Assembly (NCBI RefSeq): GCF_003003285.1
Contig: NZ_PVTP01000005.1
Span: 124,001-188,000, forward strand
DNA length: 64,000 bases
Direction: 5' to 3'
Source: Yoonia maritima
GTDB lineage: Bacteria > Pseudomonadota > Alphaproteobacteria > Rhodobacterales > Rhodobacteraceae
The notes under the pieces are model-generated. The model saw nothing but the letters and a program-made list of their open reading frames with translations, was not told where the DNA came from and did not search any database. The position numbers were made by a program, and so were the translations under genes. Positions 1 through 11,452 of this stretch are shown here, piece by piece; within the stretch, counting starts at the first letter, position 1; every line of letters starts with the position of its first letter.

Positions 1-436
1 CTTGGGACATCCATGACAGGAACGGATATTCGTTGCCAAAGAACCAGACGCCAATGGTTTTGCCGCGGAAATCTTCGACACTTTCAATACCGGTATCTTT
101 CCAGCAGGTCAGCATCAGTCCCGATGTTTTGAACGGCTGCGCGATGTTCACAACAGGCAGACCTTTTTCACGCGCGGACAATGCGGACGGCATCCAGTTC
201 AGCATGACGTCAGCGCCACCACCAGCAAGCACCTGCGGCGGTGCGATGTCAGGGCCACCTGGCAAGATCGTCACGTCCAGCCCTTCTTCCTCATAAAACC
301 CTTGGTCGAGCGCCACATAATAGCCCGCGAATTGGGCTTGCGTGACCCACTGCAACTGCAGTGTTACTTCGTCGTCGGCAGATGCTGCATTGCCTAAACC
401 CGCGGCAAGAGCTGCCGCCATCATCAGTTTCTTCAT
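1..436 (-). CDS. ABC transporter substrate-binding protein, NMT1/SsuA type (partial, C-terminus off window)
   Basis: This is the periplasmic binding component of the ABC importer encoded just upstream. The start has a good ribosome binding site (GGAGG, then TCAAA, then ATG). Residues 1 to about 20 form a signal peptide with a basic start, an Ala/Leu core and an ASA cleavage region. The mature part opens with LQLQWVTQAQFAGYYVALDQ, which is typical of the NMT1/THI5-like fold that binds pyrimidine-like and hydantoin-like ligands. About 145 residues are visible; the family is usually 310-340 residues long. It is the last visible gene of the pyrimidine/hydantoin operon, so uracil, hydantoin or a related ring compound is the inferred ligand. 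The family call is firm; the ligand is inferred from neighbours. Confidence 0.85.
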   Translation of the reverse strand, partial: MKKLMMAAALAAGLGNAASADDEVTLQLQWVTQAQFAGYYVALDQGFYEEEGLDVTILPGGPDIAPPQVLAGGGADVMLNWMPSALSAREKGLPVVNIAQPFKTSGLMLTCWKDTGIESVEDFRGKTIGVWFFGNEYPFLSWMSQ

Positions 437-475
437 TTTGACCTCCAAGTCAGATTAGAGCCCTCTTTTCGGGGC

Positions 476-1333
476 TTAAAGTTGTTTTCTTTGCGAAGGG
501 TGCCAAAATGTGACCCGCCCTTCGATCCATGCCATCAGCCCGTAAAGCGTGCTTCCGGCGATTGCTGCCACCACAATTTCAGCCCAGACCATATCCAGCG
601 CAAGCTGCCCGACGCTGGTAGATATGCGAAAGCCCATCCCAACCGTCGGAGAGCCGAAAAATTCAGCAACAATAGCCCCGATAAGCGCAAGAGTTGTCGC
701 AATCTTTAGCCCGTTGAAAATGAATGGCATCGCAGCTGGCAAACGCAATTTAAACAGCGACGGCCAGTATCCGGCACCATAAGTCCGCATCAAATCACGC
801 TGCATCGCGGTCGTGTCTCGCAACCCGGCAACCGTGTTCACAAGGATCGGGAAAAACACCATGACCCCAACAACAGCCGCTTTGGATTCCCAGCCGCTAC
901 CAAGCCATTTAACAAAGATTGGCGCGGTCCCGACGATTGGCAGCGCCGCCATAAATCCACCAACCGGCAAGATACCACGCGTCAGAAAATCTGAACGATC
1001 AGCAAGGATGGCAACAGCAAACGCAGCAACAGCACCAAAGAAGTATCCGGTCATCGCGCCTTTGATAATGGTCTGCTCAAAATCAGCCCAAAGGCGCGGT
1101 AGCTCGCTTACAAACCGCACACCAATCGCCGATGGCGGCGGTAGGATCACCGCATTCACCTCCAACATGCGAACTAGCCATTCCCACATTAGCAAAAGGG
1201 TCAATCCGAATATGATAGGCACAAGCAGGCCTACCAAGCGGGCGTCAGACTTTGGCCCATTTGCCAGCCGCGTGTTAATAAACCACCCAACAGCCCAAAT
1301 GGCCAAGGCCCCGATGATTGCGACCCAAGTCAT
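476..1333 (-). CDS. ABC transporter permease (SsuC/ThiX-type)
   Basis: Integral membrane permease of 285 residues for the pyrimidine/hydantoin importer. It shows a membrane helix at the N-terminus, a second at about residues 33-53, and the five-helix binding-protein-dependent transport domain. The cytoplasmic coupling loop near residues 180-210 (MRTYGAGYWPSLFKLRLPAA) fits the EAA motif with its trailing KLRLPAA. The start codon overlaps the stop of the preceding permease by four bases (ATGA), so the two permeases are probably translationally coupled and form a heterodimer. A 39-base gap separates it from the binding-protein gene. Family assignment is secure; substrate comes from context. Confidence 0.88.
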   Translation of the reverse strand: MTWVAIIGALAIWAVGWFINTRLANGPKSDARLVGLLVPIIFGLTLLLMWEWLVRMLEVNAVILPPPSAIGVRFVSELPRLWADFEQTIIKGAMTGYFFGAVAAFAVAILADRSDFLTRGILPVGGFMAALPIVGTAPIFVKWLGSGWESKAAVVGVMVFFPILVNTVAGLRDTTAMQRDLMRTYGAGYWPSLFKLRLPAAMPFIFNGLKIATTLALIGAIVAEFFGSPTVGMGFRISTSVGQLALDMVWAEIVVAAIAGSTLYGLMAWIEGRVTFWHPSQRKQL

Positions 1334-2250
1334 GCGCGCACCATCCCCATCCGACGTAAGGTCAGACGCTCTAACAGGCTAAACAGTCCGACCAACGCTG
1401 CGGCCGTGATCGCCGCAGCGAACAAGGCCGCCCAAGTCACAAGCGGCTGACCATATTGATCACCCACCAACATGCGTGCGCCGAATCCGGCCCGTGCACC
1501 CGTAGGCAATTCAGCCACGATTGCACCAACAAGCGATGCGGAAATACCAATCTTCAATGACGCAAACAGGTAAGGGACAGATGCTGGCAACCGTAGTTTC
1601 CAAAACCCTTGGGCGGGGCTGGCATGATAGGTGCGTAGCAAATCAAGCTGCATACCATCGGGGCTACGCAGTCCCTTTACCATCCCTACGACCACAGGAA
1701 AGAAGCTAAGATAAGCGCTAATAATCGCCTTCGGCAAAAGCCCCTGAATCCCAATCGCGCCCAGCATGACGATAATCATCGGAGCCAAAGCAAGGATCGG
1801 GATCGTCTGGCTCGCAATCGCCCAAGGCATCACGCTCATATCCATTGCGCGGTTGTAAACGATACCCACGGCAAGCAAGATTCCCAGCCCAGTCCCAATC
1901 GCGAAGCCAAGCAGAGTCGCGGATAGCGTCACCCAACCATGGTAAACAAGCGACCGCTTCGACGTGATTTTCTTCATCACAATCGTATCCCACATCTCAA
2001 CCGCAACCTGGTGGGGCGAAGGCAGCCGTGGGCGTTCTTGAACAAAGGTCAGACCCAACAACGAAGGATTGCGAAGCGACAGCCCCAAACCGCTATGATC
2101 TTGGCGCTCTGCCGGTGTTTCCGGTGACACAGCCAGCCCATCACGCTGCGCCTGATCCGCAGTCAGATGCATATTCATCGGAATAACCGCCAACACCCAG
2201 ACGAATAAAATCGCGGCAACAATAGTCAAAACTGGAAGGACAGATTTCAT
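1330..2250 (-). CDS. ABC transporter permease (SsuC/ThiX-type)
   Basis: Second membrane permease of the importer, 306 residues. After a first helix (about residues 5-25) comes a hydrophilic stretch of about 75 residues, then the conserved transport domain. The coupling loop LRTYHASPAQGFWKLRLPAS again fits the EAA motif. The stretch between helix 1 and the core domain is longer than in the partner permease and probably faces the periplasm. It lies between the ATPase gene and the second permease, overlapping the latter by four bases. A GGGAG ribosome binding site precedes the ATG. Confidence 0.88.
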   Translation of the reverse strand: MKSVLPVLTIVAAILFVWVLAVIPMNMHLTADQAQRDGLAVSPETPAERQDHSGLGLSLRNPSLLGLTFVQERPRLPSPHQVAVEMWDTIVMKKITSKRSLVYHGWVTLSATLLGFAIGTGLGILLAVGIVYNRAMDMSVMPWAIASQTIPILALAPMIIVMLGAIGIQGLLPKAIISAYLSFFPVVVGMVKGLRSPDGMQLDLLRTYHASPAQGFWKLRLPASVPYLFASLKIGISASLVGAIVAELPTGARAGFGARMLVGDQYGQPLVTWAALFAAAITAAALVGLFSLLERLTLRRMGMVRA

Positions 2251-2295
2251 ACGGCCACTCCCTCATCTTGCCCAAAATACTTCCGCCGGAGGCTC

Positions 2296-3081
2296 CTACA
2301 CATCGTCATGCCCCGCCCTCAATCCATCGCGCACGCGATGGGCAATCTCGATAAATTCCGCACTGTCGCGAATATCCAAGGGGCGTTCTTTAGGAAGCGG
2401 GCTTTCGATGACATCGGTAATGCGACCGGGCCGCGGCGACATAACGACAATCTTGGTCGACAGATAAACCGCCTCGGGGATCGAATGTGTCACAAAGCCA
2501 ATAGTCTTTTCTGTCCGCGCCCACAGCTTCAAAAGCTGCTCATTCAGATGGTCGCGGACGATTTCATCAAGCGCGCCGAACGGTTCATCCATCAACAGAA
2601 TATCAGCGTCAAACGCCAACGCCCGCGCAATCGACGCGCGCTGCTGCATACCGCCCGATAGCTGCCACGGGAATTTCTTTTCAAACCCAGCCAGATCAAC
2701 CAGCTCCAAAACACGCCCAACGCGTTCAGCCTGTTCTGACTTAGAAAAACCCATAATCTCAAGCGGAAGCTTGATATTCCCACCAATCGTCCGCCAAGGA
2801 TACAGCCCAGCCGCCTGAAATACGTAACCATAGGCACGCGCGCGACGGGCCTCGTCTGGGGTCATTCCGTTAACAGTGATCGCACCCGAAGTTGGCGTCT
2901 CTAACCCGGCAATACAGCGTAAAAACGTCGTCTTGCCGCACCCCGAAGGCCCGATAAAGCTGACAAAATCACCCTTCTTGATCTCTAAATTCACACCCTT
3001 CAGCGCGTGCACCGGGCCGTCGTTCGTTTCAAACGTCAGGTTTAGCCCCTGCGCATTTATTATTGTTGGCTGGCTCAACAC
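2296..3081 (-). CDS. ABC transporter ATP-binding protein (SsuB/TauB-type)
   Basis: Nucleotide-binding subunit that powers the importer. It carries Walker A GPSGCGKTT (about residues 44-52), the signature LSGGMQQR, Walker B ILLMDEPFGALDE and the switch His in FVTHS. I start at the GTG that follows an AAGG ribosome binding site by six bases. A GTG two codons upstream (at 3087) is open but would overlap that site. The gene begins about 15 bases after the dihydropyrimidinase stop and so belongs to the same transcript. Its closest families are nitrate/sulfonate/taurine ATPases, whose members in this setting serve pyrimidine or hydantoin uptake. Confidence 0.9.
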   Translation of the reverse strand: MLSQPTIINAQGLNLTFETNDGPVHALKGVNLEIKKGDFVSFIGPSGCGKTTFLRCIAGLETPTSGAITVNGMTPDEARRARAYGYVFQAAGLYPWRTIGGNIKLPLEIMGFSKSEQAERVGRVLELVDLAGFEKKFPWQLSGGMQQRASIARALAFDADILLMDEPFGALDEIVRDHLNEQLLKLWARTEKTIGFVTHSIPEAVYLSTKIVVMSPRPGRITDVIESPLPKERPLDIRDSAEFIEIAHRVRDGLRAGHDDV

Positions 3082-3096
3082 TTGCACCCTTATAAA

Positions 3097-4551
3097 TTAG
3101 ACCCCAGTCGCCGGAATGCCGGTGCGTTCCACAGGCCGCGGAGCGGTTAGGTCTTTCCATTTCGACAGCGCAGTGTTCACCGTGCCATTTGGATCGCGGG
3201 CGACGAATTCGCCGTGGCCTTCTTTGGCTTTTAATTCGCCATTGTCCACCGCGACGTAACCGCGGGTTAGCACATAGCGAGGGGTCGCCGAAACTTCGAC
3301 GCCTTCAAATACGTTATAGTCAATCGCAGACGCTTGGGTGCTGGCCGAAATGGTTTTCTTGGCGTTCGGGTCCATCACTACGATATCCGCATCTGCGCCC
3401 ACAAGGATCGCGCCTTTCTTTGGATAGCAGTTCAAGATTTTCGCGATGTTGGTCGATGTCACGGCAACAAATTCATTCATCGTAATACGGCCTGTTTCGA
3501 CACCGTAGGTCCACAGCACAGGCAAACGGTCCTCTAGCCCGCCGGTCCCGTTGGGGATTTTTGAAAAATCGCCCACGCCATAGCGTTTTTGATCGGTGGT
3601 AAAGGCACAATGGTCGGTCGCCACGCATGATAACGTGCCCGACGCCAAACCAGCCCAAAGGCTATCCTGATGCTGTTTGTTCCGGAATGGGGGTGACATT
3701 ACGCGGCGCGCGGCATGGTCCCAATCTTCATTGAAGTATTCAGATTCGTCCAAGACAAGGTGCTGCACCAATGGTTCACCCCAAACGCGTTTGCCCTGCA
3801 TTTTGGCGCGACGGATCGCTTCGTGAGATTCTTCGCAAGACGTGTGCACGACATACAGTGGCGCACCTGCCATATCGGCGATCATAATCGCGCGGTTGGT
3901 GGCTTCGCCTTCGACTTGGGGCGGGCGGGAATAGGCGTGTGCCTCGGGGCCCGTGTTGCCTTCAGCCAGTAATTTAGCGGTTAGTTCTGCAACAACATCG
4001 CCGTTTTCGGCGTGGACCAACGGCGTTGCGCCCAGTTCAGCGCAGCGCTTGAAGGATGCGTAAAGTTCATCATCGTTCACCATCAACGCGCCTTTATAGG
4101 CCATGAAATGTTTGAACGTGTTGATGCCGTGTTCTTCGGTGATGGTCTTCATGTCATCAAAGACCTGTTCGCCCCACCATGTGATCGCCATGTGGTAGGA
4201 ATAATCGCAGGCCGCGCGGCCCGATTTGTTATCCCAAACCTTGAGCGCATCCAGCAGGCTGTCACCCGGGCTGGGCAGACAGAAATCAACAACCATCGTG
4301 GTACCACCAGCCAGCGCAGCACGGGTACCCGTGGCAAAGTCATCTGCGGAGTAAGTGCCCATAAACGGCATCTCAAGATGCGTATGCGGGTCAATCCCAC
4401 CCGGCATGACAAAGCAATCGGTCGCATCTAGAACTTCATCGCCCGACAGGTCCGGCCCGATCTCAATGATCTTGCCGCCGTCAATCAGCACGTCTGCCTT
4501 ATAAGTCAGATCAGCGGTGACGACGGTTCCGTTTTTGATGACTTTGGTCAT
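3097..4551 (-). CDS. hydA: Dihydropyrimidinase (D-hydantoinase)
   Basis: Cytoplasmic metal-dependent amidohydrolase of 484 residues, the usual family length. It opens the ring of 5,6-dihydrouracil and dihydrothymine, and of hydantoins, to N-carbamoyl acids. Metal ligands are visible: His56 and His58 in GGIDPHTHLE, the Lys to be carboxylated in FKHFMAYKGALM near residue 150, later His residues in PLVHAEN and YVVHTS, and the Asp of ATDHCAF near 315. The N-carbamoyl product is the substrate of the M20 hydrolase encoded two genes upstream. The ATG overlaps the stop of the 115-residue gene by four bases (ATGA). Confidence 0.93.
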   Translation of the reverse strand: MTKVIKNGTVVTADLTYKADVLIDGGKIIEIGPDLSGDEVLDATDCFVMPGGIDPHTHLEMPFMGTYSADDFATGTRAALAGGTTMVVDFCLPSPGDSLLDALKVWDNKSGRAACDYSYHMAITWWGEQVFDDMKTITEEHGINTFKHFMAYKGALMVNDDELYASFKRCAELGATPLVHAENGDVVAELTAKLLAEGNTGPEAHAYSRPPQVEGEATNRAIMIADMAGAPLYVVHTSCEESHEAIRRAKMQGKRVWGEPLVQHLVLDESEYFNEDWDHAARRVMSPPFRNKQHQDSLWAGLASGTLSCVATDHCAFTTDQKRYGVGDFSKIPNGTGGLEDRLPVLWTYGVETGRITMNEFVAVTSTNIAKILNCYPKKGAILVGADADIVVMDPNAKKTISASTQASAIDYNVFEGVEVSATPRYVLTRGYVAVDNGELKAKEGHGEFVARDPNGTVNTALSKWKDLTAPRPVERTGIPATGV

Positions 4552-4895
4552 TTTTTGTTCTCCGAGGGGGGGTAATCTATAGGGCCCGTGTTTGAATAGT
4601 GCCTACCATTTTTAGGGGTAGGGGCGTTGAAATGGACCGGAACTTGAAATGAAATCCGATTAGCCGCTTCACGAGACGCACTTCCTTTGAGTTCTCCGAT
4701 CCCTAACACAGAAATACCTCCACCACCTTCACCTGTTACAGTTACATCAACCTCAAATGTTACGAACTGTCCTTCAGTTTGTTTTTCACCTTCAACAAAA
4801 CCCGGGGCTACGTATAGAAGGCTTTCATCTTGGGCTTCGGATACACCCTTGGTGATATCTAATAGTGTGTTCTTTACGAATTCGTCTAATTTCAC
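4548..4895 (-). CDS. Uncharacterised 115-residue protein inserted in the pyrimidine operon
   Basis: I do not know its function. The start is GTG and overlaps the upstream hydrolase stop by four bases (GTGA); its own stop overlaps the dihydropyrimidinase ATG by four bases (ATGA), so it is coupled on both sides. It has no signal peptide or membrane segment. An N-terminal helix (DEFVKNTLLDITKGVSEAQ) is followed by a beta-rich, Gly-rich middle and a C-terminal strand RISFQVPVHF. From memory, this pattern recurs in a widespread family of hypothetical proteins of 100-120 residues. The gene is visibly richer in A+T than its neighbours, which suggests late insertion into an existing operon. Its reading frame is intact. 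Confidence 0.75.
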   Translation of the reverse strand: MKLDEFVKNTLLDITKGVSEAQDESLLYVAPGFVEGEKQTEGQFVTFEVDVTVTGEGGGGISVLGIGELKGSASREAANRISFQVPVHFNAPTPKNGRHYSNTGPIDYPPSENKK

Positions 4896-6142
4896 CCAAC
4901 AATCCCCGCCGTCTCAACAACCGCATGGAATAGCACGTCTGTTCCCGCAGCCGCCCATTCTTGGCTAATTTCTTCGGCCTCGTTATGTGACAGTCCGTCA
5001 ACGCATGGGCACATGACCATAGCGGTCGGTGTCAGGCGATTGATCCAGCAGGCGTCGTGACCAGCGCCCGAGATGATATCCATGTGGGAATACCCCAGAC
5101 GGTCCGCGGCGTTCCGCACGGCTGTCACGCAACCTTCGTCAAACGTTACCGGGTCAAAATGGCCAACGGCTTCGATTTCCATCGTTAGCCCGAGTTCTTC
5201 AATAATCGGTACTGCCTCGGCCTCTAGTCGTGCTTTCATGCCGTCGAGTTTATCCTGATCAGGGGAACGGAAATCGATGGTAAAGACAACCTTGCCCGGG
5301 ATCACGTTACGCGAATTTGGGTAGACGTCGCAGTGACCAATCGCGCCAACCGCACCGGGCTGATTATCCATCGCAATCGTGTGCACCAGCTCCGTGATCC
5401 GCGCCATGCCAAGCCCTGCATTCACACGCATATTCATTGGGGTCGATCCGGTATGTGCATCTTTGCCCGTAAGGGTGACCTGCAACCACCACAAGCCTTG
5501 GCCATGCGTCACAACGCCGATCTGTTTATTCTCGGCCTCTAGAATTGGACCCTGTTCAATGTGCAACTCAAAGAACGCGTGCATCTTGCGGTCACCAACC
5601 TTTTCTTCGCCCTTCCAACCAATGCGCTCTAACTCTGCGCCAAATTTCTTACCCTCAGCGTCTTCACGGTCATAAGCCCAGTCTTGGGTGTGCATGCCAG
5701 CAAATACACCAGAGGCCAGCATCGCCGGGGCAAAGCGCGTGCCTTCCTCATTCGTCCAGTTAGTAACAACAATGGGGTGCTTGGTTTTGATGTCGAGATC
5801 ATTCATCGTGCGCAGCAGTTCCAACCCACCTAACACACCCAGAACACCATCATATTTGCCACCAGTCGGCTGCGTGTCCAAATGCGATCCGACATAAACG
5901 GGCAACGCATCGGGGTCGGCACCTTCACGGCGGGCGAACATGTTGCCCATCTGATCGAGCCCCATGGTGCAACCTGCATCCGTGCACCACTTCTGAAACA
6001 GGTGACGACCTTCACTATCTTCGTCGGTCAGAGTTTGGCGGTTGTTACCACCGGCGATACCCGGGCCAATCTTGGCCATTTCCATCAGACTGTCCCACAA
6101 ACGTGCACTATTGATCTTTAAATTTTCGCCTGGGGCTGCCAT
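4892..6142 (-). CDS. Zn-dependent beta-ureidopropionase / N-carbamoyl amidohydrolase (M20 family)
   Basis: Cytoplasmic hydrolase of 416 residues that removes the carbamoyl group from N-carbamoyl-beta-alanine or related N-carbamoyl amino acids, releasing CO2 and ammonia. Metal-binding motifs typical of the M20 hydantoinase/carbamoylase group are GSHLDTQ (residues 85-91), KYDGVLG (Asp98) and NEEGTRF (Glu132 and Glu133). The dimerisation-lid region includes HIEQGP and GKDAHTGSTPM. It is the first gene of the operon and lies just downstream of the predicted RutR operator. Allantoate amidohydrolase is an alternative, but the dihydropyrimidinase partner favours pyrimidine or hydantoin catabolism. 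Confidence 0.9.
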   Translation of the reverse strand: MAAPGENLKINSARLWDSLMEMAKIGPGIAGGNNRQTLTDEDSEGRHLFQKWCTDAGCTMGLDQMGNMFARREGADPDALPVYVGSHLDTQPTGGKYDGVLGVLGGLELLRTMNDLDIKTKHPIVVTNWTNEEGTRFAPAMLASGVFAGMHTQDWAYDREDAEGKKFGAELERIGWKGEEKVGDRKMHAFFELHIEQGPILEAENKQIGVVTHGQGLWWLQVTLTGKDAHTGSTPMNMRVNAGLGMARITELVHTIAMDNQPGAVGAIGHCDVYPNSRNVIPGKVVFTIDFRSPDQDKLDGMKARLEAEAVPIIEELGLTMEIEAVGHFDPVTFDEGCVTAVRNAADRLGYSHMDIISGAGHDACWINRLTPTAMVMCPCVDGLSHNEAEEISQEWAAAGTDVLFHAVVETAGIVG

Positions 6143-6172
6143 GAGTTATCTCCGCCGTAGAACAAGTCTAAT

Positions 6173-6188
6173 TTGACCATTCGGTCAA
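6173..6188. promoter_or_regulatory. Predicted RutR operator
   Basis: The site reads TTGACCATTCGGTCAA, and the flanking bases extend the dyad to TTT...AAA. It matches the known RutR consensus TTGACCA-NN-TGGTCAA at every position but one. It lies between the divergent pyrimidine operon and rutR, about 30 bases upstream of the hydrolase start. RutR is released from such sites by uracil, so the simplest model is uracil-induced expression of the operon. Confidence 0.88.
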
Positions 6189-6313
6189 AGTGAGGCTAAC
6201 AGAGACATAGGCCCAGTCAAGTTTTCCGCGCAGAGAACATGCAGTTGCCGCAAAAGGATGCAAATACGCTAGGCAGTGACCACCGACGCCCTAAAATTGA
6301 GCAAGTACATACT

Positions 6314-6925
6314 ATGAGTAAACCTGAGACACGTATTCAACAACGCAACCGCGCCGCAATTTTATCTGCAGGGCTAGATATTTTTTCTCAATTTGGCCTT
6401 CGAGGATCGACGCTTGATCAAATCGCTGACGCCGCAGGGTTATCGAAGCCCAATTTACTTTATTACTTTAAGTCGAAAGACGCGATTTATACCGCACTTT
6501 TGGAACGTCTTCTGGAAACATGGCTTGATCCACTTCAGAAAATGGACGCCAACGGAGATCCCATAAAAGAAATACTTGGTTATGTGCATCGCAAACTGGC
6601 GATGAGCAAAGACTACCCCCGCGAAAGCCGTCTGTTTGCGAACGAAATCTTACAAGGCGCTCCGCATATTGCTGATCACCTCAGTCAAGATTTACGACAA
6701 CTGGTCGATGAAAAAGCAGTGGTGCTAAAGACATGGGAAGCAGCCGGAAAGATCGCGCCTATCGACCCTCATCATCTTGTCTTCTCAATTTGGGCAATGA
6801 CACAACACTATGCGGATTTTGATGTGCAGGTCCGTGCTGTTTTAGGCGACAAGGACCCGTTCGAAGATGCGATGGCCTATCTTGATACGCTATTTCGCCG
6901 GATGCTAACCCCTCCCAATTCATAG
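6314..6925 (+). CDS. rutR: Uracil-responsive TetR-family regulator RutR
   Basis: DNA-binding regulator of 203 residues. The N-terminal TetR helix-turn-helix covers about residues 15-60 (TLDQIADAAGLSKPNLLYYF). The C-terminal part strongly resembles E. coli RutR as I recall it: SKDYPRESRLFANEILQGAP, IDEKS-like VDEKAV, and GKIAPIDPHHLVFSIWAMTQ followed by HYADF. I chose the ATG at the conserved MSKPETR; an upstream in-frame ATG would add 25 unlike residues. It is divergent from the pyrimidine operon with a RutR-type operator between them, so autoregulation is likely. Confidence 0.9.
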   Translation: MSKPETRIQQRNRAAILSAGLDIFSQFGLRGSTLDQIADAAGLSKPNLLYYFKSKDAIYTALLERLLETWLDPLQKMDANGDPIKEILGYVHRKLAMSKDYPRESRLFANEILQGAPHIADHLSQDLRQLVDEKAVVLKTWEAAGKIAPIDPHHLVFSIWAMTQHYADFDVQVRAVLGDKDPFEDAMAYLDTLFRRMLTPPNS

Positions 6926-6938
6926 ATTGAGAATAGGT

Positions 6939-6971
6939 TTGGCCTTGGCAACGTTCACCTGCCAAGGCCAA
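6939..6971 (+). terminator. Hairpin downstream of rutR (probable terminator)
   Basis: A perfect 12-base inverted repeat (TTGGCCTTGGCA / TGCCAAGGCCAA) with a nine-base loop begins 14 bases after the rutR stop. The U-tract after it is poor (TTGCGTTAG), so termination may be partial or the hairpin may protect the mRNA 3' end. Confidence 0.6.
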
Positions 6972-7087
6972 TTGCGTTAGAAATGCGGCATCTTTTACTA
7001 TACGATGCATGAGCAAGAACCGATTATGAAAGCTAACGCTAGCGTCAGGGCTTGCGATCCCCGCCCTGCTACGGCACCACTACTTTT

Positions 7088-7948
7088 ATGACCCATACAC
7101 TTCTTTCTTTCGGTCACGGCTTTAGCGCGCAGGCGCTTGCCCGTGTTTTGCTGCCGCAGGGCTACACGATTATCGGAACAACGCGCTCCGCTGATGGCGC
7201 TGCCGAGGTCGCAGAAACAGGGGTTGAGGCTATGCTATGGCCCGGCACCGATATGGTACCTGCACTGGATAAGGCGACGCATCTGCTGATCTCGACCGCG
7301 CCCGGCGATGATGGTGACCCTGTGCTTGCCGCCCTGAAAGATGAGATCGCGGCACGTGCAAAACAATTCGAATGGGTCGGCTATTTGTCCACCACTGGCG
7401 TTTACGGCGATCACGCTGGTGATTGGGTTGATGAAACCACGCCGCTAACCCCAGCAACAAAACGCGGCATCGCGCGAGTCAAGGCAGAGGCCGCTTGGGC
7501 AGACATCCCCGACCTCCCCCTGCATATTTTCCGGCTTGCGGGCATCTACGGTCCCGGACGTGGACCATTTTCTAAGGTTCGCAGCGGTAGCGCACGGCGT
7601 ATCATCAAGAAGGGTCAGGTCTTTAGCCGCACCCACGTTGATGACATCGCACAGGTTCTTGCAGCTTCTATCGCCAAACCGAACCCCGGTGCGGTCTATA
7701 ACGTCTGCGACAACGACCCGGCGCCACCTGAAGACGTCATCGGTTACGCGGCCGAATTACTAGGGTTACCACTGCCCCCCGCCGAAGACTTTGAAACTGC
7801 CGAGATGACACCAATGGCCCGCAGCTTTTACGCAGAAAGCAAAAAGGTACGTAACGACAAGATCAAAGACGAACTTGGCGTTCGGCTCATCTATCCTGAT
7901 TACCGGAGCGGACTTAAGGCGCTATTAGCGCAGGAAGAAAACGCCTGA
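7088..7948 (+). CDS. NAD(P)-binding SDR-type epimerase-like protein (YeeZ-like)
   Basis: Soluble protein of 286 residues with an N-terminal Rossmann fold. The nucleotide loop reads SFGHGFSAQALARVL, as in the atypical short-chain dehydrogenases related to E. coli YeeZ. Extended-SDR landmarks follow: STTGVYGDHAGDWVDE, then RLAGIYGPGRGPF and TRTHVDDIAQVL. The classical catalytic YxxxK is not obvious, so activity is uncertain. I start at MTHTLLSF, because the 12 upstream in-frame residues are not protein-like. The end overlaps the convergent membrane-protein gene by 35 bases. No substrate can be named. Confidence 0.8.
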   Translation: MTHTLLSFGHGFSAQALARVLLPQGYTIIGTTRSADGAAEVAETGVEAMLWPGTDMVPALDKATHLLISTAPGDDGDPVLAALKDEIAARAKQFEWVGYLSTTGVYGDHAGDWVDETTPLTPATKRGIARVKAEAAWADIPDLPLHIFRLAGIYGPGRGPFSKVRSGSARRIIKKGQVFSRTHVDDIAQVLAASIAKPNPGAVYNVCDNDPAPPEDVIGYAAELLGLPLPPAEDFETAEMTPMARSFYAESKKVRNDKIKDELGVRLIYPDYRSGLKALLAQEENA

Positions 7949-8567
7949 CGGTCCACGCGATGGCAGCGAATAGTAGCAAAAGAACAACGGCGATCGCTAA
8001 GTTTGATCCATAAAAAATCATGCGTTGCGGTAGTTCTAGATTGTTCAAGAACCGATAAGGCAGTCCGCTTGTCACTGCGCCCATAGGGGTTGCGTTAGTT
8101 GGACTAATCACAAGTTCGGTCCACAACACGTAGCCACCAATCACCCCGACAAGCCACGCCAAAGGCGCACCCAACCGCCGATAACTGCGATGGATAAAGA
8201 GCGTGTCAATCAGCTGAAGCAACGGTCCGAACAGATGCAAGTACAGTTCTAAATGCCATGCCATCAGCTGCCCATTGTCGGTCACTGATGTTGGGTCTGC
8301 GAAATACAACCGCCAAAACAAGAATACGACCATCGTGTTGATCACGGCGGTCATGCAGACAAAACCGTCCCAGCGCCTTTCGCTTCGGCCCTCTTGGATT
8401 GCCATCATACGGCTTGCCGCAAAGAAGGATGCGAAAAGCGCCCAGACGGTCAGATACCTCAGCGGTCCACCAAACCCATCATAATTGCCAAAAATCAAAG
8501 TCCGCAGGACGTAACCGCCGGCCAACAAGAAAACCACCCACCGATAGATGTGAACAAAATGCGTCAT
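7914..8567 (-). CDS. Pr6Pr-type integral membrane protein
   Basis: Membrane protein of 217 residues with about six hydrophobic segments, at roughly 8-25, 37-55, 68-85, 100-120, 137-155 and 185-205. The spacing and residues such as W near the helix ends and LAWLVGVIGGYVLWTELV fit the Pr6Pr/FAR-17a-AIG1-like membrane family, whose bacterial members are uncharacterised. It has a clear ribosome binding site (GGGAGG) upstream of its ATG. It is convergent with the YeeZ-like gene and divergent from the sodium channel gene. Function unknown; the family name rests on memory of the pattern. Confidence 0.72.
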   Translation of the reverse strand: MTHFVHIYRWVVFLLAGGYVLRTLIFGNYDGFGGPLRYLTVWALFASFFAASRMMAIQEGRSERRWDGFVCMTAVINTMVVFLFWRLYFADPTSVTDNGQLMAWHLELYLHLFGPLLQLIDTLFIHRSYRRLGAPLAWLVGVIGGYVLWTELVISPTNATPMGAVTSGLPYRFLNNLELPQRMIFYGSNLAIAVVLLLLFAAIAWTVRRFLPALIAP

Positions 8568-8756
8568 ATAGATCCTCCCGACGCTTATGCTGCGTTGGTT
8601 GTGGATATTCGGTCCATAAGAACGCTACGTCGGGCGCGCTAACGGCCCGTCAGCGCCACCTGATGCGCAGTGCACACATTTGCGCGAATAGCCCCGCCGA
8701 TCACTTGCGTATTAAACCGGCCCGCGCCATATGAAACCAACAATTTTGGCGGACCG

Positions 8757-9542
8757 ATGACTTACAAAGAAACGCTTGCGCACTACCTTAGCTTACCCTT
8801 CACACGCAATTTCATCATCGGTGTCATTCTATTTAATGCCCTGATACTTGGCCTCGAAACATCCGACGCCATCATGAGCCGTTTCGGTGGTTTGATCGAA
8901 GCACTCGACACGCTGTGCCTTACAATCTTCGTTATCGAAATCGCTGCAAAGCTGGTCGCGCACGGTCGGCAATTCTTTCGCAGTGGCTGGAACCTGTTTG
9001 ATTTCATCATCGTTGGCATCGCCTTGATCCCAGCAGCCCAAGGCCTTGCCGTGTTGCGTGCCCTTCGAATTTTGCGCGTGATGCGGATCATGTCAGCCGC
9101 GCCCAGCCTTCGCCGCGTTATCGAAGGTTTCGTAACCGCGCTTCCCGGGATGGGCAGTGTGTTTCTTTTGATGGCGATCATTTTCTATATCGGATCGGTC
9201 ATGTCGACCAAGCTATTCGGCGATAGCTTTCCCCAATGGTTCGGAAGCCTAGGCCAATCGGCCTATTCGCTGTTCCAAATCATGACGCTTGAAAGCTGGT
9301 CCATGGGGATCGTCAGACCCGTGATGGCGACCTACCCTTATGCGTGGGCGTTCTTTATCCCATTCATCATGGTCACAACTTTTGCTGTCGTGAACCTACT
9401 GGTGGGTCTGATCGTGAATTCAATGCAAGACGCCCACGCCGAAGAAGCAAACGCAAGCACAGACGCCTATCGTGACGCCGTTCTACAGCGTTTGATCGCG
9501 ATCGAAAAACACTTGGATATGAAGAACGCGCCTGAGGACTAG
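8757..9542 (+). CDS. Voltage-gated sodium channel (NaChBac/NavSp family ion transport protein)
   Basis: Inner-membrane ion channel of 261 residues, the usual length of bacterial homotetrameric sodium channels. Segments S1-S3 lie at about residues 18-95. S4 carries arginines at 101, 104, 107 and 110 ([10 protein letters not shown]), the spacing of a voltage sensor. The pore has the diagnostic selectivity filter TLESWSM (177-183), then S6 and a C-terminal coiled coil (about 232-255). The start MTYKE is chosen because the 29 residues upstream in frame look non-coding. Marine roseobacters commonly carry this family; a role in motility or sodium/pH homeostasis is inferred. Confidence 0.92.
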
Positions 9543-11452
9543 GCGCGTTTTCCGATTACTTCAACGCCCAAGACATCCAAAACCTTGGCTTCGATATCAT
9601 CGGCGTTCAGTCCCGCAGTGTCATACATCGCGCGTGGGCTGGCCTGATCAATAAAGGTATCAGGCAGCACCATGGACCGGAATTTCAGGCCGTGATCGAA
9701 CACGCCCTCATCCGACAATAGCTGTGCGACATGTGACCCAAAGCCACCGACACTGCCTTCTTCGATGCAGATCAGTGCCTCGTGATCAGCGGCCAGTTTC
9801 AGGATCATGTCTTTATCAAGCGGCTTAGCAAAACGTGCATCAGCCACGGTTGGATTGATGCCCTTTGCAGATAGCGCTTCGCAGGCGGCGGTCACTTCTT
9901 GCAGCCGCGTCCCGAAAGACAGGATCGCAATGCGCGATCCTTCTTTGATCATCCGGCCTTTGCCGATTTCCAGCAGTTCTGGATTTTGCGGCATCTCGAC
10001 ACCCACGCCTTCGCCCCGTGGGAAACGGAACGCAATCGGACCGTCGTCATAGGCGGCAGCCGTGGCAACCATGCGCACCAATTCAGCCTCATCAGCGGCG
10101 GCCATCACGACCATCCCTGGCAAGTTCGCCAAGAACGCCACATCGAATGCACCCGCATGAGTCGCGCCGTCAGCACCAACAAGCCCAGCGCGGTCAATCG
10201 CGAAACGGACGGGTAAACGCTGGATCGCAACATCATGCACAACCTGATCATAGCCACGCTGCAGGAACGTCGAATAAAGCGCACAGAACGGACGCATCCC
10301 GCCAGCGGCAAGACCCGCACTAAACGTCACCGCATGTTGTTCGGCGATACCAACGTCAAAGCAACGACTGGCGTAGCGTTTCATGAAACGGTCAAGGCCA
10401 GTTCCGTCAGGCATCGCAGCGGTGATCGCGCAAATCTTGGGATCATTGGCGGCCAGATCAATCAAAGTCTCAGCAAATACCGAAGTATAAGACGGCGCGT
10501 TACTTGGCGCTTTCTTTTGTTCGCCAGTAACAACGTCGAACTTTGCGCGGGCATGACCCTTATCGCTCGCATCTTCGGCGGGGGCGTATCCCTTGCCCTT
10601 TTTGGTAATCGCGTGGATCAGGATCGGGCCATCTGCGCGTTCTTTGACGGTGCGCAGCACAGACAAGAGCTGATCCATGTCGTGGCCGTCGATGGGGCCG
10701 AGGTAGGAAAAACCAAGTTCTTCGAACATCGTGCCACCGACGGTCATATGCTTCAGCATATCCTTGGCGCGTTTGGCACCTTCGCGGAATGGTTCGGGCA
10801 GCAATGACACTGCACCTTTTGCAGCCGCTTTGAATTCCTGAAACGGTTCGCCCGCGTATAGACGTGACAGATATGAAGACATCGCGCCAGTTGGCGGGGC
10901 AATCGACATTTCATTGTCGTTCAAGATCACGATCAAACGCTTGCCTAGATGACCTGCGTTATTCAGCGCCTCATAGGCCATACCAGCCGACATCGCGCCA
11001 TCACCGATTACGGCAATCGCATCGCCACCTTCGCCGCCCAGGTCACGTGCAACGGCAAAGCCAAGTGCCGCAGAAATCGACGTGCTCGAATGCGCAGCGC
11101 CGAACGGGTCATAGGGGCTTTCAGATCGTTTTGTAAAACCGCTTAGCCCACCTTCGGTCCGCAGCGTGCGAATACGATCACGACGTCCGGTTAGGATTTT
11201 ATGTGGGTAACATTGGTGGGATACATCCCAGATGATCTTGTCCTTGGGCGCATCGAACACAGCGTGCAAGGCGACGGTCATTTCAACCACACCCAGCCCA
11301 GCGCCCAAATGCCCGCCGGTCACGGACACCGCTGCGATAGTTTCGGCGCGCAGATCATCGGCCAGCTGCCGCAGCTCCGCGTCCGATAGCTGCTTCATGT
11401 CATCTGGCGTATTCACGCGATCCAAAACGGGGGTAAGTGGCTGGCTGGTCAT
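9539..11452 (-). CDS. dxs: 1-deoxy-D-xylulose-5-phosphate synthase
   Basis: Cytoplasmic thiamine-diphosphate enzyme of 637 residues that condenses pyruvate and glyceraldehyde 3-phosphate, the first step of the MEP isoprenoid pathway. Visible landmarks are [14 protein letters not shown], the ThDP motif [15 protein letters not shown]...NDNEMSI, the transketolase pyrimidine domain (FAETLIDLA...[10 protein letters not shown]) with its catalytic Glu, and a C-terminal domain. An ATG with AAGG eight bases upstream decides the start; a TTG five codons earlier overlaps the preceding stop. It directly follows the prenyl synthase gene, so precursor and chain-forming enzymes are co-expressed. Confidence 0.96.

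Follow-up and report, generated by a model that had tools for sequence, protein, structure and literature searches.

A small AT-rich, Trypco2-like gene at the M20-hydA joint of Yoonia maritima as a probable mobile passenger of bacterial operons

In this study, we show that a 115-codon gene (X) lies between the genes of an M20 amidase and of dihydropyrimidinase (hydA) in a stretch of 64,000 nucleotides of Yoonia maritima, hereafter the window, and that its presence among relatives is patchy, its difference from the closest congener is a clean indel, its composition is AT-rich, its protein is constrained, and related copies occur in unrelated operons, in Tn3 elements and in phages. These observations make us confident that X travels and is not a part of the pathway in whose operon it resides. 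On balance, we favor the overall reading in which X, from a divergent Trypco2-like family, moves as a solo passenger gene, docks in operons and takes part in biological conflict. The conflict role itself, a stand-alone action against phages or mobile elements in superinfection exclusion, defense or counter-defense, is offered only tentatively. In this reading, X has lodged at the M20-hydA joint and draws its start codon from the terminal bases (G-TGA) of the amidase gene; with its 3' end running into the start of hydA, it would probably be expressed by translational coupling from the promoter of the host operon. We infer the expression, the mobility mechanism and the function of X.

The features of the window that bear on this reading are the following.

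3097..4551, minus strand: hydA, dihydropyrimidinase, host gene downstream of X (TIGR02033 above cut-off)
4548..4551, minus strand: ATGA, stop codon of X overlapping the start of hydA (read in the sequence)
4548..4895, minus strand: X, Trypco2-like solo gene, 115 aa, GTG start, AT-rich
4561..4890, minus strand: segment without counterpart in the closest congener, G005 (colinearity of window 1-10549)
4892..4895, minus strand: GTGA, stop codon of the M20 gene doubling as GTG start of X, the landing pad (read in the sequence)
4892..6142, minus strand: M20 hydantoinase/carbamoylase-family amidase, host gene upstream of X (NF006769 and TIGR01879 above cut-off)

The preliminary description of this DNA had reported 4-bp overlaps on both sides of X, an intact frame and an A+T content above that of the surroundings, all of which hold. 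The M20 gene ends in GGG TGA within the context ggGTGAAA, the GTG of GTGA being the start of X, and the ATG within ATGA, in the context AAAAAATGAcc, is the first codon of hydA. Four-base overlaps are common in bacterial operons and are therefore unremarkable alone. The reading frame at 4548-4895 (-) is open across all 115 codons. The GC content of X is 0.445 versus 0.538 in the 8-kb flank and lies under that of every flank window tested, and its GC3 is 0.35 versus 0.59 and 0.62 in the two neighboring genes. Neither terminal repeats nor a transposase were found with the window copy. A TetR-type regulator at window positions 6239-6925 (+) is divergent from the M20-X-hydA genes; its nearest model is RutR, with 243.2 bits, below the model cut-off of 368.

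In the genus, hydA is present in 48 of 56 genomes, and the M20-hydA junction was read for the best 30 of 49 hydA matches. X occupies a single one of these 30 junctions, the window's own, so that a conserved presence with hydA in close relatives is not seen, and the proposal of the preliminary description that X could be an accessory or scaffolding subunit sits poorly with its absence from the other 29. The remaining junctions hold a GIY-YIG gene (12/30; PF01541 for the L087 copy), a lipoprotein-like gene (7/30; no Pfam hit for the L099 copy), four different other ORFs (4/30), or a short gap of 56-96 bp only (6/30). The M20-hydA junction is a docking site which holds different small genes in different congeners. 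The GIY-YIG gene (L079, L080, L083, L085, L087-L090, L093, L094, L100, L105) resembles X in being a small guest of the same junction, but its protein is unrelated and its start, preceded by a stretch that looks repetitive (frames reading PDLIRDL...GPGSSPG), is approximately 130 bp from the beginning of the gap, whereas X starts at the M20 stop. Other, unrelated junction ORFs (L081, L082, L084, L086) and lipoprotein-like ORFs (L091, L097, L098, L101 with GTG, L102 with TTG) also begin on the M20 stop overlap. Capture of the start codon by genes other than X is suggestive only, because these starts were assigned mechanically as the first start codon in frame; the X homologues instead share the N-terminus MKLDEFVK.

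The closest congener by protein, G005 (hydA 99.4%, M20 97.6%), is colinear with window 1-10549 (approximately 10.5 kb), the one exception being 4561-4890, in place of which G005 has 55 bp. At L078, the next closest of the empty sites, 10 nt are shared with the start of the X gene and could be the scar of a deletion. Thus far the difference between G005 and the window may represent either a gain in the window or a loss in G005. A recombination tract at the junction, considered in view of lower identity nearby, was dropped when longer flanks showed a similar baseline. Elsewhere in the window's own genome (L122, G000:C1, near 143.6 kb), soxB joins through TGATG to an unrelated putative ORF of 169 aa with a GC content of 0.53, beyond which lies soxD; this soxB-soxD interval looks like a second docking joint.

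Searches with X alone were positive in 2 of 60 relatives and in 8 of 394 genomes of the family, the window's own genome being counted in both. A 9-row profile detected the gene in 15 of 394 genomes at the family level and 10 of 385 at the class level, a 39-row profile in 7 of 398 at the phylum level, and a scan of named-species genomes gave 19 loci. We studied 44 distinct loci, the window among them, and could assign a genomic setting to 32; a host operon gene contains or directly precedes X in 27 of the 44. The M20-X-hydA arrangement was seen at 13 of the 44 (Rhodobacteraceae, Rhizobiaceae, Phyllobacteriaceae, Tepidamorphaceae and others), a count inflated by the seeding of the named-species scan with the M20-hydA subfamily. 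The distance between X and hydA is at most 12 bp in 12 of these 13 loci, the 3' gap of X is at or below zero in 8, and the two-sided overlap is rare (3/13). In the family-wide survey, 13 of 15 hits were at operon sites (M20-hydA 5, sox 5, and glp, rplP and suc one each). In the class-wide survey, X had neither M20 nor hydA within 5 kb in 9 of the 10 positive genomes. The preliminary description had stated that a gene occurring mostly outside pyrimidine operons and lacking without effect in close relatives would be a passenger, and this is the distribution found in the class and in the congener junctions. Its passenger alternative is thus supported, with the qualification that the M20-hydA site is favored.

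The other homes of the family are diverse. X follows soxB, with soxD and soxA downstream, in 5 of the 44 loci (L016 and L017 assigned by reading of the sequence region), and its start there is the ATG of TGATG in all three measured. At the glp site (2/44; L015 matched by eye) it lies between glpQ, a glycerol-type ABC permease gene, and DUF2160, and in Sulfitobacter sp. W074 it shares one base with each neighbor. It follows rplP in two further loci (L053 by profile, L071 by eye), and single loci show SufB..X-SufC, SucB-X-MAPEG-lpdA (lpdA by eye), ClpA-X and PutA-X. A GatA-X-GatB locus (L116) has 4-bp overlaps on both sides, the anatomy of the window in a different operon, and its hosts are genes of the essential tRNA amidotransferase; this copy is only distantly related (39.8 bits against the profile, on a long tree branch). 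A tRNA gene lies within 150 bp of X in three loci (L042, L048, L054).

Several loci deserve mention in their own right. The S10 ribosomal-protein operon is seemingly interrupted after rplP in L053 and L071, from two Rhodobacterales-type genomes, where the distant X homologues are followed by ORFs of 204-208 aa, alike by eye, on the other strand. In L011, a GH114 glycoside hydrolase gene (PF03537) is inserted between M20 and X. In L046, from a low-GC alphaproteobacterium, the homologue lies approximately 1.4 kb upstream of an ORF that by eye resembles a type I restriction subunit. The copy at 8001-8318 of L075 is frameshifted mid-gene; its surroundings seem, on inspection by eye, to include a plasmid replication gene and an IS66-type transposase.

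It seems that the foreign composition of X accompanies it everywhere. Its GC content is below that of the 8-kb flank in 43 of 44 loci, by a mean of 11.7 points (L114 is the exception) and by more than 5 points in 40 of 44, and its GC3 is below that of the measured neighbors in 24 of 24. Low expression or amino-acid make-up could account for part of the low GC. With regard to constraint, dN/dS is 0.057 between the two Tn3 copies (L063/L064), the sole pair with measurable dS; in the other nine pairs dS is saturated or nearly so, and pN ranges from 0.075 to 0.382 versus 0.746-0.841 for pS. X is a real gene, since its homologues at M20-hydA sites are 43-69% identical to it. A foreign make-up everywhere, combined with a constrained protein, agrees with a passenger that has its own function. 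Site labels on the X tree require 8 changes versus a shuffled mean of 19.1 (none of 200 shuffles as low); the sox copies fall on one side of a branch, and glp and rplP take two changes each. Therefore, copies appear to stay long at a site and also to arrive independently. The X and hydA trees disagree for the Rhizobium and Roseivivax/Alterinioella copies (AU p 0.06, 0.039 and 0.083), which is weak incongruence.

The sole Pfam match of the window protein is to Trypco2 (PF19631; E 0.011, 16.4 bits), below the gathering cut-off of 24.2 bits, and the earlier statement that X encodes no known motif was therefore nearly right, apart from this sub-threshold match. PADLOC, NCBIfam and PHROGs gave no match at the limits used. 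Among the relatives that X retrieves, 21 of 39 have a Trypco2 match at E<=0.01, which indicates homology to the members of that family. Among the 10 relatives scanned against the cut-off, L054 (25.0 bits) and L117 (26.5 bits) pass it and L010 falls narrowly under it (23.9 bits), and a Sulfitobacter copy carries the annotation 'trypco2 family protein'. Because of its own weak match and those of its relatives, we call X Trypco2-like, that is, homologous to the family and not a certified member. The widespread unnamed family invoked in the preliminary description does exist: it is named Trypco2 and is only just detected here. The AF2 model of X is of low confidence (mean pLDDT 69.8, pTM 0.52), with a helix at 3-25, strands at 43-53 and 77-92, and a poorly modeled loop at 55-75. 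The Foldseek comparison of a predicted structure that had been proposed earlier gave no match at E<=0.001 in PDB or BFVD. A profile search of PDB sequences returned two designed beta-trefoils (E 1.5e-5 and 3.3e-5), with no single stretch passing alone, and a chitodextrinase (E 0.0022); we took these as composition or chance.

With regard to vehicles, a Tn3 transposase-X-resolvase arrangement was found in 2 of 44 loci (L063 by profile, L064 by eye), in which X overlaps the resolvase gene by 4 bp and shares 58 and 62% identity with the window protein. These two form the nearest connection of the operon copies to a mobile element. The window protein itself matched one plasmid, no phage by tblastn and no viral contig in IMG/VR. 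Distant relatives reach further: the L054 protein matched 6 phage records and the Bacteroides phage copy, which is 39.5% identical to L054, matched 7, and 6 viral-contig loci carry distant relatives. Three phage regions were examined. The homologue begins 6 bp downstream of a gene annotated as regulator or repressor, on the strand of that gene, in two of them, Bacteroides phage BS-TP2 and Porphyromonas phage006a; in Riemerella phage PJA1 no regulator is annotated beside it. The position beside a repressor is like that of phage morons, with the difference that the phage relatives are distant and that no phage was found with the window protein. The phage homologue at PQ571275.1 28049-28438 (L118 5001-5390) is labeled 'PhnM' by structure alignment and looks misannotated.

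We considered whether X might instead be translated together with HydA as a subunit of the pyrimidine-degradation enzymes, with an accessory, scaffolding or regulatory task. Recurrence of the M20-hydA site in Rhodobacteraceae and in Rhizobiales relatives and the tight placement against hydA suit such a subunit and speak against a passenger, as does the clustering of site labels on the X tree, since long residence at a site is also compatible with a local function; the protein-level constraint suits the subunit as well. However, the congener junctions lacking X hold unrelated small genes instead, relatives also reside with sox, glp, gat, suf and suc genes and elsewhere, and the composition is foreign at each of these other sites that was measured. 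We rejected the subunit as unlikely on this patchiness and these unrelated homes. A translational valve, in which the frame of X spans the leader of hydA and controls its expression through termination-reinitiation, is more doubtful still: in the window the last codons of X do cover the place where empty sites show the hydA ribosome-binding region, and the 3' end of X often abuts or overlaps hydA, but a valve would not need a conserved protein, whereas that of X is constrained, and at soxB the same family is loose downstream and tight upstream. A spurious or decaying ORF, as the AT-richness, the sporadic presence and the frameshifted L075 copy might suggest, can practically be dismissed in the face of intact, constrained homologues with a common N-terminus.

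Membership of a VMAP/trypsin ternary conflict system, the setting in which Trypco2 was originally reported, with X acting in trans, is likewise very improbable. According to the accessible parts of PMC7159879, Trypco2 (trypsin-co-occurring domain 2) is defined by its gene neighborhood with trypsin-like peptidases, and PMC7159879 and PMC10907252, as far as their accessible text goes, name it after its neighbors in conflict systems. The weak profile match of X favors such a system. However, a search for trypsin_2 (PF13365) near X gave no match within 5 kb in 29 genomes, some of whose contigs end near X; the nearest match was approximately 9.8 kb away (G792), and VMAP-C was above cut-off in none of the 29 and sub-threshold once (G1074). 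X differs from described Trypco2 members in lying alone in host operons, and its membership of the ternary system is unsupported. The stand-alone conflict role proposed within the mobile-passenger reading is based on the Trypco2 likeness, the phage and Tn3 contexts, the sporadic presence and the AT-richness; the missing partners, the lack of a PADLOC hit and the uninformative structure count against it. A near precedent is that of restriction-modification genes such as PabI, which insert into operons (PMC4615327, PMC10273834, in the portions available). X, as a putative horizontally moving conflict gene, shares with them the same-strand position within a functional metabolic operon (glutamate or histidine for the restriction-modification genes in those portions) and the absence in relatives. 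In contrast to these toxic pairs with a proposed addiction effect, as described there, X is a single small gene adjoining M20 and hydA, with no restriction/modification or toxin/antitoxin pair, and, in operons of many kinds, it starts on the stop codon of its host. X works like the restriction-modification operon guests but is not a member.

A bolder extension of the mobile-passenger reading, which we regard as doubtful, would be a landing-pad immunity, in which solo Trypco2-like genes act as single promoterless conflict proteins at coupled stop-start joints of core operons, and loss of the protein senses phage shutdown of host expression or proteolytic attack, with Tn3 and temperate phages as vehicles. 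The joints would be those of pyrimidine breakdown, sarcosine oxidase, glycerol uptake, Fe-S assembly, tRNA amidotransferase and ribosomal proteins, and the borrowed stop codon, serving as the start, would keep the protein at the level of the core operon.

We found no reports of operon docking of this type in searches of an open-access literature library. It is usual to take every gene of an operon as acting in its pathway. The X family breaks this assumption in many operons at once, such that guilt by association would mislead its annotation. If docking is general, joints such as M20-hydA and soxB-soxD would be a hunting ground for uncharacterized promoter-free mobile conflict genes. Moreover, X would present on its own a domain that is otherwise known only from multi-gene conflict systems, as one of their partners, and it is small enough to be tested alone.
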